Below are positions 11,927 through 14,597 of a stretch of DNA of 33,865 nucleotides, piece by piece. The first letter of the stretch is position 1. Every line of letters starts with the position of its first letter. The position numbers and the translations under genes are program-made. Source of the stretch: Thiothrix sp. (GTDB lineage: Bacteria; Pseudomonadota; Gammaproteobacteria; Thiotrichales; Thiotrichaceae); the NCBI GenBank assembly GCA_020442915.1, contig JAGRJD010000086.1, positions 315 to 34,179 on the forward strand, read 5' to 3'. The notes beneath the pieces were generated by a model. The model was given only the letters and a program-made list of their open reading frames with translations, was not told the DNA's origin and did not search any database.

Positions 11927-12199
11927 ATGAATATGATGGAAATAGGGCGTACCCTGCGTCAGGTGCGCCGCCAGAAACAGCTGACCCAGCAGGAGCTGGG
12001 AGCCATGCTGGGCATGAGCCGGTCTACCGTTTCCGGCATTGAAAACGGGACCATCACGGAAATCGGTATCCGCAAGGTGATGGCCTTGTGTGCCGTGCTG
12101 GGGCTGGAGCTGGCCGTCAGTGAATGCGTCCAGCGCCGGCCCACGCTGCAGACCCTGATGGGTGAGGCGGAACGGCGTAAAACCGGAAAAGGCAGGTGA
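11927..12199 (+). CDS. hipB: HipB-like antitoxin / Xre-family repressor
   Basis: A 90-residue protein, nearly all one HTH_3 (Xre/Cro-like) domain: LRQVRRQKQLTQQELG, MSRSTVSGIENG and IRKVMALCAVLGLELAV. The C-terminus is a short basic tail. Three Met codons lie at 11927, 11933 and 11936; the operator repeat ends just before the first, leaving no Shine-Dalgarno there, so the start may be one of the later two or be used on a short leader. It precedes hipA with stop and start overlapping or within a few bases. The expected job is to neutralise HipA and repress the operon through the duplicated operator upstream. Confidence 0.88.
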   Translation: MNMMEIGRTLRQVRRQKQLTQQELGAMLGMSRSTVSGIENGTITEIGIRKVMALCAVLGLELAVSECVQRRPTLQTLMGEAERRKTGKGR

Positions 12200-12201
12200 G
12201 C

Positions 12202-13449
12202 ATGAATGCGTTCGAGGGCCTGGATATTTTTACCGGACACCAGCGTGTGGGGAGTCTGGGGCGTAGTCAGTTGCAGGCACGGGCCTACGTTTTCAATTAT
12301 TTTCCGGCGGTGCCGGATGAGCAGGCCGTATCACTCACCATGCCGGTGCTGCCGGATCAGTACCTGTTTCAGCATGGTGTGCACCCGATATTTCAGATGA
12401 ACCTGCCGGAAGGGGAGTTGCGGGAAATGCTGCGCAACAGTTTCCAGAAAGCGGTGCAGAATTTTGATGACCTCAGTCTGCTGGCCATTGTGGGGCAGTC
12501 GCAGATCGGGCGGGTGCGCATTGCCCTGCCGGGCCGGGAGCCGGAGGCCATGCCGCCCCAGAGTGTGCAGGAGCTGAAGTCTTATACCGGCTCGGAGGAT
12601 TTGTTTGCCGACCTGATGCAGCGTTTCGGGCGCTACTCCGGGGTATCCGGGGTGCAGCCCAAGGTATTGGTGCGCGATAATGAAACCGTGGCCGCCGCGT
12701 CGGCTGCCGGTGAGCCGGAACAGGTCACGTACCGGGATGCCACCCATATCGTCAAGGCCTGGAACCCGGAGCGCTTCCCGCAGCTGGCCGCGAATGAGTA
12801 TTTCTGCATGCTGGCTGCCGAGCGCTGCGGGCTGGAAGTGCCGGCGGTGGAGTTGGCGGCGGAGGGGCGGCTGCTGATCGTCCGGCGCTTCGATCTGGAT
12901 GGCAGTGGCGGCTACCTGGGCTTTGAGGATTTCTGTGTCCTGAACGGTCTGGCGACGGATGACAAATACCTGGGCAGTTATCAGGACGTGGCCGAACGCA
13001 TCCGCGAGTTTGTTTCACCACATCGGGTGCATGATGCCATGGAGCAGTATTTCCTGATGCTGGCGCTGACCTGTGGTGTGCGTAACGGTGATGCCCACCT
13101 GAAAAATTTCGGGGTGCTGTATGGTCATGCGGAAGCGGAAATCCGTCTGGCACCGGCTTATGACATTGTTTCCACGACCCCTTACCTGCCCAATGACAGT
13201 CTGGCCCTGTTGTTCGGGGGCAGCAAGTTTTTCCCGCAGCGCAAGGCGCTGGTGACTTTCGGGCGGCGCTTCTGCGGTCTGACCGAGCGTCGGGTGAGCC
13301 AGCTGCTGGACTGGGTGGTACATGGTATGGAAAGCACGCTGGCTGATATTGCCGATTACCGGGACGGGCATCCGGAATTTACCGGTGTGGGCGAGCGCAT
13401 GCTGGCTGTGTGGCGTGAAGGCATGGCGGATCTGCAGGGGCATGGATGA
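12202..13449 (+). CDS. hipA: HipA-like Ser/Thr kinase toxin
   Basis: About 415 residues from the ATG at 12202; an in-frame GTG at 12196 overlaps the hipB stop and is the alternative start. The order of motifs matches HipA: an N-terminal couple_hipA-like region, then the Ser-containing loop SGVQPKV (about 149-155, near the autophosphorylated Ser150 of E. coli), HIVKAW with Lys185, RRFD, the catalytic NGDAHLKN (Asp297, Asn302) and PAYDIV (Asp321), the DFG equivalent. All key residues are present, so the kinase should be active. HipA of E. coli phosphorylates glutamyl-tRNA synthetase and causes growth arrest; the target here is unknown. The stop overlaps the next ATG (ATGA), binding the CARF gene into the operon. 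Confidence 0.92.
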   Translation: MNAFEGLDIFTGHQRVGSLGRSQLQARAYVFNYFPAVPDEQAVSLTMPVLPDQYLFQHGVHPIFQMNLPEGELREMLRNSFQKAVQNFDDLSLLAIVGQSQIGRVRIALPGREPEAMPPQSVQELKSYTGSEDLFADLMQRFGRYSGVSGVQPKVLVRDNETVAAASAAGEPEQVTYRDATHIVKAWNPERFPQLAANEYFCMLAAERCGLEVPAVELAAEGRLLIVRRFDLDGSGGYLGFEDFCVLNGLATDDKYLGSYQDVAERIREFVSPHRVHDAMEQYFLMLALTCGVRNGDAHLKNFGVLYGHAEAEIRLAPAYDIVSTTPYLPNDSLALLFGGSKFFPQRKALVTFGRRFCGLTERRVSQLLDWVVHGMESTLADIADYRDGHPEFTGVGERMLAVWREGMADLQGHG

Positions 13450-14597
13450 GTGTGACGGTGGATAATATGCAGGCACCCCGGGTTCAGCTTTGTCTGCTGT
13501 CGGGACCACAGGCCGGGAGTCTGTTGCCGCTCTTGGACTCGCGGACGCGTCCGACACGGGTGCTGGTGCTGGCGGCTGCCGGTGCGGAAACGGCTCTGGA
13601 AGCATTCTGCCGGCTGGTACAGGCAGAAACCGGGCTGGCCGTGCAGACTTGTGTGCTGGCGGAGAGGGCAGATGCCGCTGACATTGTGACGGCCCTGGAA
13701 GGTCTGCTGGCCGGGTGTGTTGCCGCTGATGTCGTCCTGAATGTTTCCGGTGGTACGCGCCTGATGGGGCTGGCGGCACAGGGTGTGGGGCAGCGTCTGG
13801 GGTTGCCGGTCTGGTTCGTCGATGCCCGGTACGGGGGGCTGCAGGTGCTGGCCGGCCCCTTGACATATCAGGGCATGGTCCCGGCTTCACTGACACTGCC
13901 TCAGGTGCTGGCTCTGCAGGGCTGGCAGTGGCAGGCACAAACGGTTTTCATGCCGCCAGCAGCGTGGCAGGTGCTGATCCGGGAGTGGATTGCCAATCTG
14001 CGTCATTACAGCACCGGTCTGGCGATTCTGGACTGGCTGGCGCTGAGTGCCGGGGCGGGGCTGGTTTCGCGCGAGCTGGAGCCGTGGCAGTTTGAGGTGC
14101 AGGCCTTTCGTGATGTCATCCAGCGGCTGCGTCAGCTGGATCTGGTGCAGCTGGAAGGGCGGCGCATGGTATTTACCGATGAACAGGCCCGGCTGTTTGC
14201 ACGTGGTGGCTGGCTGCAGGGGTATGTGTTGTCCTGTCTGGCAGCGCTGGAAATCGGGGCGACACAGGCTGGTGCCTCGGTGCGGGTGTGTGATGACCGG
14301 GGCCGGCAGCATGAGCTGGATGTGGCATTTGTGGTCGCCAACCGCCTGCATGTCATCGGTTGTCGTTCCGTCAGCGTGCGCAAGGGGCGGGCAACAACGG
14401 ACATGGAGGTGATTTTTTCCCCTTCCTTGTTGCAGAGCGGCCTGCCGCTGACGGGTGGGGGGCTGTTGCTGGCCTACCGTCCGCTGAAAAGCCAGGAGGT
14501 ATCCCGTCTGCGTATGGCAGGGGTGGATGTGCTGCAGGAAAAGCAGTTGCAGAACCTGAGCACTTATCTGCAGGAGGGCCTACTGCATCAAGTATGA
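13446..14597 (+). CDS. CARF / Card1-like (DUF1887) protein with altered nuclease motif
   Basis: A 383-residue protein. The N-terminal half is a Rossmann-type CARF domain, with the nucleotide-contact block LNVSGGTRLMGLAA at about 98-111 and VWFVDARYGGLQVL after it. A middle helical or winged-helix region ends in ARGGWLQGYVLSCL, the junction seen in DUF1887 proteins. The C-terminal part has the PD-(D/E)XK core: ELDVAF with Asp292, then RLHVIGCRS, where the usual E-x-K (ECK) is Gly305-Cys-Arg307. Length and layout match Card1/Can2 (about 375-400). CARF domains bind cyclic oligoadenylates. The ATGA overlap couples translation to hipA, and no cas gene or CRISPR array is in the window. The altered motif suggests weak or no nuclease activity; a sensing or HipA-regulating role is my inference. 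Confidence 0.8.
   Translation: MSVTVDNMQAPRVQLCLLSGPQAGSLLPLLDSRTRPTRVLVLAAAGAETALEAFCRLVQAETGLAVQTCVLAERADAADIVTALEGLLAGCVAADVVLNVSGGTRLMGLAAQGVGQRLGLPVWFVDARYGGLQVLAGPLTYQGMVPASLTLPQVLALQGWQWQAQTVFMPPAAWQVLIREWIANLRHYSTGLAILDWLALSAGAGLVSRELEPWQFEVQAFRDVIQRLRQLDLVQLEGRRMVFTDEQARLFARGGWLQGYVLSCLAALEIGATQAGASVRVCDDRGRQHELDVAFVVANRLHVIGCRSVSVRKGRATTDMEVIFSPSLLQSGLPLTGGGLLLAYRPLKSQEVSRLRMAGVDVLQEKQLQNLSTYLQEGLLHQV

Follow-up and report, generated by a model that had tools for sequence, protein, structure and literature searches.

Can2 and Card1 (DUF1887; PDB 7bdv and 6wxw) are cA4-activated CARF-nucleases of type III CRISPR, encoded beside cas genes. VC1899 of Vibrio cholerae (PDB 1xmx) is an orphan DUF1887 protein and, like the protein described here, is not adjacent to a type III locus, according to PMC7969007. 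Cami1, in which a CARF domain is fused to a RelE-family toxin domain, provides an earlier case of a toxin-family domain controlled by cyclic oligoadenylate (PMC11229360). The described toxin-antitoxin systems closest to our locus are E. coli hipBA (PDB 2wiu) and HipBST, in which an HTH antitoxin is followed by a two-domain HipA kinase, the genes overlap, and paired palindromic operators lie over the promoter. We analysed a 33,865-nt stretch of Thiothrix sp. DNA (the window) that contains an operon sharing these hipBA features, together with a third gene:

10605-11846, plus strand: upstream neighbour of the operon, encoding a 413-aa protein with no Pfam match
11857-11885, plus strand: hip promoter, -35 CTGACA, 17 bp, -10 TATAAT (11 of 12 consensus matches)
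11927-12199, plus strand: hipB, HTH antitoxin/repressor, Y4mF/HipB-like, 90 aa
12196-13449, plus strand: hipA, HipA-family kinase toxin, 417 aa, GTG start, kinase motifs intact
13446-14597, plus strand: CARF gene, Can2/Card1-family CARF plus PD-(D/E)xK protein, 383 aa
14578-14607, plus strand: intrinsic terminator, the stem starting within the CARF gene, then a T-run

The layout given by the original prediction, three overlapping open reading frames with one promoter and one terminator, was confirmed, with exact coordinates. The hipB/hipA and hipA/CARF junctions each overlap by 4 bp, and the ATGA of the second couples hipA to the CARF gene. HipB is an HTH_3 protein (1.4e-14), and its closest model is TIGR03070, with a score below the cut-off of that model. 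HipA consists of HipA_C (7.6e-46) and an N-terminal Couple_hipA domain (1.4e-17) and has sequence matches to solved HipA and HipT structures. All kinase motifs of HipA are retained, as had been claimed: the K in HIVKAW, the D and N in NGDAHLKN, and the D in APAYD do not vary among the 29 aligned HipA sequences. The first two genes have the features of a HipBA system: a HipB-type HTH gene overlapping a two-domain hipA, the HipA catalytic residues, and, by sequence, palindromic operators over the promoter. HipA is the predicted toxin with HipB as its predicted antitoxin. A homologue of the upstream 413-aa protein also precedes hipB in a second species of the genus (G002; L062 7285-9162), with 35% identity over 163 aa.

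The protein encoded by the third gene matches Pfam Card1_endonuc PF09002 above the cut-off (1.8e-11), its CARF half being weak (0.27), and the PADLOC model CARF4--CARF_PDDEXK over residues 12-377 (2.1e-57). Its sequence matches in the PDB are VC1899 (2.1e-16) and Can2 (3.9e-15). The AlphaFold2 model has a pLDDT of 90.5 and a pTM of 0.87, and a Foldseek search with this model gave full-length matches to VC1899 (1.4e-26) and Can2 (9.7e-25), with a TM-score of 0.71 to 7bdv. Because the model matches VC1899 and Can2 over its length, the CARF fold proposed from two short motifs stands, and both motifs are present:

13737-13766, plus strand: CARF ligand-loop motif LNVSGGTRLM, residues 98-107
14205-14228, plus strand: GGWLQGYV, residues 254-261, the conserved NGGWLE element of the family

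In the alignment with relatives, N99 of the loop is found in 92 of 92 sequences and G103 in 89 of 92, and the position of R105 is K in 70 of 92. Judged from sequence and model, the third protein is a whole Can2/Card1-type protein, with a CARF Rossmann domain followed by a PD-(D/E)xK domain. The nuclease domain and the loss of its active site are both new relative to the original prediction. The altered site is as follows:

14310-14366, plus strand: degenerate nuclease active site, H289-E290-L-D292 ... G305-C-R307 replacing N-E-L-D ... E-C-K

Each of N, E, D, E, C, and K in the N-E-x-D ... E-C-K site is invariant in 92 of 92 aligned relatives, and the downstream Y-K reads F-S in the window. In the PD-(D/E)xK superfamily, losing E and K should abolish catalysis. 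The window CARF protein should thus be nuclease-dead, and no DNA or RNA cutting is expected from it. Since the site is not intact, we class the protein as a Can2/Card1 homologue and not as an active member of the family. E276 and D278 of Can2, which belong to the same active site, are essential, and the cA4 contacts common to Can1 and Can2 are S19, T42, K99, and Y118, as given in PMC7969007. These contacts read S, A, R, and F in the window CARF, so that three of the four are changed, two of them conservatively. Binding of cA4 or of another ligand by the window CARF is possible.

The original prediction took absence of the triad from related genomes as a pointer to chance adjacency; the triad is present in a second species of the same genus. 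G002 carries hipB, hipA, and a CARF gene with the same ATGA overlap, its hipA being 79% and its CARF 31% identical to those of the window, and the nuclease site of the G002 CARF is intact. In G003, also of this genus, hipB and hipA (hipA 77% identical) are followed by two CARF fragments, the CARF gene being internally deleted; the relic reads 'NGGWLEDYAY ... VLQEKQLQNLRYYLDE'. In about 15 further genomes, from this genus and from a sister genus, hipBA is present at 65-74% identity and no CARF gene accompanies it; hipA identity to the window ranges from 65 to 79% across 17 relatives. All known cases, two triads that are intact and one relic, come from one genus. The G002 CARF is the best-scoring relative of the window CARF among about 500 genomes, and a wider search of the class found none closer. 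A direct peptide scan of genome contigs with the window CARF gave no match; an alignment-based scan did find relatives. Plasmid and phage collections contained none at the limits used. Of eight CARF relatives in the family's other genera, seven have a Cas10 match no more than 14 kb away. Three of them, the CARFs of G059, G017, and G014 at 6-11 kb from Cas10, share 48-55% identity with the G002 CARF. Because relatives have hipBA without the CARF gene and the CARF genes of the family lie near Cas10, we take hipBA to be the old core and the CARF gene a later addition, probably drawn from the type III pool of the family. The Cas10 gene of G059 (L065, G059:C1:1280000-1299900, 16004-18094) is split over two frames, with matches in frames of 712 aa and 116 aa, and may be frameshifted.

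The operon is flanked by operator-like palindromes at both ends (none is assigned to a strand):

11871-11888: 5' HipB-type operator 1, TGCATCGTATATAATGCT, overlying the -10
11910-11927: 5' HipB-type operator 2, TGCATTGTATATAGCGCA, 39 bp past operator 1
14584-14601: 3' operator-like palindrome 1, TGCATCAAGTATGATGCA, weak, coinciding with the terminator stem
14624-14641: 3' HipB-type operator 2, TGCATTCTATAAAATTCA, 40 bp on from palindrome 1, the top-scoring site of the window

The 18-bp palindrome TGCAYTNTATANARTGCA is found 5' of hipB in 18 of 18 close hipBA loci, mostly paired and 39-40 bp apart. A search of all 4.08 Mb of the genome for sites with no more than one mismatch gave three, the two 5' sites and 14624-14641, just past the CARF gene. 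An operator matrix trained solely on the 5' sites of relatives gave the 5' pair and the 3' pair as the four best sites in the window (the 14584 site being weak) and likewise in G002, where the 3' spacing is 39. None of 16 hipBA loci lacking an intact CARF gene has a 3' operator pair after hipA. The 3' pairs, confined to the two triads in contrast to the 5' operators found at all hipBA loci, are a new observation. Because only the two triads have an operator pair after the CARF gene, this gene looks to be part of the HipB-controlled unit, and HipB may bind the 3' pair. Aligned with each other, the 5' and 3' regions of G002 form a direct repeat that none of 500 shuffles equalled; the repeat is weaker in the window, where 14 of 500 shuffles reach the score. 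We read the 3' pair as the probable remnant of a duplicated hip promoter region, dating from the acquisition of the CARF gene. The first 3' palindrome of the window may be just the terminator. A promoter-like site (CTGATA-17-TAGAAT, 14655-14627, minus strand) overlaps the 3' operator, points back into the CARF gene, and could be a source of antisense RNA. We do not claim that the 3' operators form a mirror-image promoter for such RNA, because the alignment favours a direct over an inverted repeat.

The three genes do belong together, in a tighter arrangement than the original prediction could show. The reading that we favour, with a probability of about 0.5, sees the CARF protein as a type III effector that was captured and brought under the gate of HipB and is now non-catalytic in the genome of the window. 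A stand-alone hipBA would be the older unit, and a CARF-nuclease gene of the Can2/Card1 type, such as other genera of the family have next to their type III CRISPR genes, would have been gained in one subclade of the genus. HipB would repress the whole unit through the 5' operators, and the second operator pair, probably a copy of the hip promoter region, would bring the CARF gene into the HipB-bound unit, with the ATGA coupling keeping CARF and HipA in step. Because its nuclease site is intact, the G002 CARF would be a HipB-gated effector triggered by cyclic oligoadenylate. The window CARF, having lost this site, would be a retained, non-catalytic former effector that could at most bind a ligand or a partner, and its retention may reflect recent drift and not function. 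The small number of triads from a single genus, the weaker direct repeat in the window and the weakness of its first 3' palindrome also count against this reading.

Drift is the core of the next reading, in which a captured, co-transcribed CARF gene became useless (for example after the type III system turned to another signal) and now decays as a passenger. We consider this rather unlikely, although it accounts for the intact, dead, and deleted states in G002, the window, and G003. It also agrees with the terminal branch of the window CARF, which at 5.56 is the longest of 93 proteins in the tree (median 0.28). The length of this branch also counts against the favoured reading, because it makes kinship with the G002 CARF unprovable; a joint clade of the two is not rejected (p-AU 0.24). 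The CARF gene is much less constrained than hipA. However, the reading frame is open for 383 codons (chance 1.2e-6 at window composition) and is gene-like, with coding-type codon use, the predicted fold is of high confidence, and the terminator and 3' operators are in place, all of which argues against simple decay. A very fast-evolving gene whose frame is nonetheless intact would suit a protein that continues to be produced while the demands on it have changed or relaxed.

The signalling context also bears on the loss of use. The statement that no cas gene is present holds for the surroundings of the operon, where none was seen, and fails for the genome, in which a search for a type III CRISPR locus elsewhere found one of the CorA kind on contig C64, the site of the sole Cas10 candidate found. 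This locus has CRISPR repeats, a 551-aa Cas10-like protein with GGDE (PADLOC 2.9e-28), three large RAMP genes, Cas2, and a 993-aa Cas6-RT-Cas1 fusion, and is adjoined by CorA (5.7e-71). It spans 6020-19462 of L060 (G000:C64:38500-57962), with two repeat arrays and a short Cas10 so divergent that its score falls under the Pfam cut-off. An ancillary effector of type III would be expected beside cas10 and in a genome with a type III system; only the second holds for the window CARF. Cas10s carrying GGDE also occur in loci whose effectors are known (PMC11229360). The signal of CorA systems like that of B. fragilis is SAM-AMP, not cyclic oligoadenylate (PMC10600005), and other CorA clades may answer to other signals (PMC11229360). 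Because the effector of the C64 locus is CorA, a type known for SAM-AMP, the supply of cA4 in the window's genome is uncertain. G002 has a Cas10 with GGDD and a CARF5 protein, and this difference between the two genomes again favours the passenger reading. The intact, dead, and deleted CARF states parallel the likely supply of cyclic oligoadenylate, in a comparison of three genomes only, of which G003 is 67% complete. At the end of the type III-B locus of G002 (L061, G002:C35, 14335-14847), a small candidate effector with one TM segment (PADLOC 'Effector 1TM', 9.1e-64) adjoins a CRISPR array.

Two further readings give the CARF a present regulatory role. In one, HipB, acting from operators at both ends, controls a nuclease-dead CARF that binds the type III messenger and serves as a HipBA regulator or a messenger sponge; we regard this as unlikely. 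The other, the model of the original prediction, in which the CARF, on sensing cyclic oligoadenylate, tunes HipA or HipB and thereby lets type III detection switch a growth-arrest toxin, is in our judgement quite improbable. The shared operon, the coupling and the operators favour it, as do the CARF fold with its retained GGT loop and the type III locus in the genome, and a nuclease lost while the fold is kept fits a regulator. However, about 15 relatives conserve a complete hipBA with no CARF gene, the CARF gene is less constrained than hipA and is deleted in one relative, and in the window, where the protein is nuclease-dead, three of the four cA4-contact positions of Can2 (S19, T42, K99, and Y118, given in PMC7969007) are changed and the type III locus is of the CorA type. 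No link between HipA and CARF was found in the literature searched, to which subscription journals mostly did not belong. On this evidence, cyclic oligoadenylate may control HipA, but the idea lacks support.

HipA-family genes are common, and one lies within 8 kb in one of 79 other CARF loci (L130, hipBST), judged to be about chance level, yet an accidental transcript in which the CARF gene merely follows hipA is very improbable given an ATGA-coupled triad in two species whose HipA proteins differ by 21%, a relic in one more species, and 3' operator pairs in triads only. The L130 locus, from a gammaproteobacterial MAG, carries on one strand (5838-10905) genes for hipB, a HipS-like protein (113 aa), a HipT-like protein (322 aa), a Csx16/STIV_B116-like protein, Can2, and Cas10. 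It was rejected as an independent triad: it has a 0.6-kb gap and, as one case among 79 other loci, is within chance by our estimate.

If the captured-effector reading is true, the locus is a natural case of a CRISPR second-messenger receptor that came to be governed by the repressor of a toxin-antitoxin operon, its intact, dead, and deleted stages being found in three related species. It would make testable whether a CARF protein can act without its effector domain and whether HipB operons can extend to new cargo.

Compared to Can2 and Card1, the window CARF shares the full-length fold, the CARF loop, the NGGWLE-type element, and the nuclease E-x-D, but it has G-C-R for E-C-K, F-S for Y-K, and Ala for the cA4 contact T42, and its gene sits in a hipBA operon and not beside cas genes. 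VC1899 is its best PDB match by both sequence and fold; unlike the window CARF, VC1899 keeps the nuclease residues, and the excerpted text of PMC7969007 gives no toxin-antitoxin operon for it. In Cami1 the toxin is fused to the CARF, whereas the window CARF and HipA are separate proteins for which control is only a candidate. Unlike E. coli hipBA and HipBST, the operon of the window has a third, CARF-fold cistron and carries operators at its 3' end.
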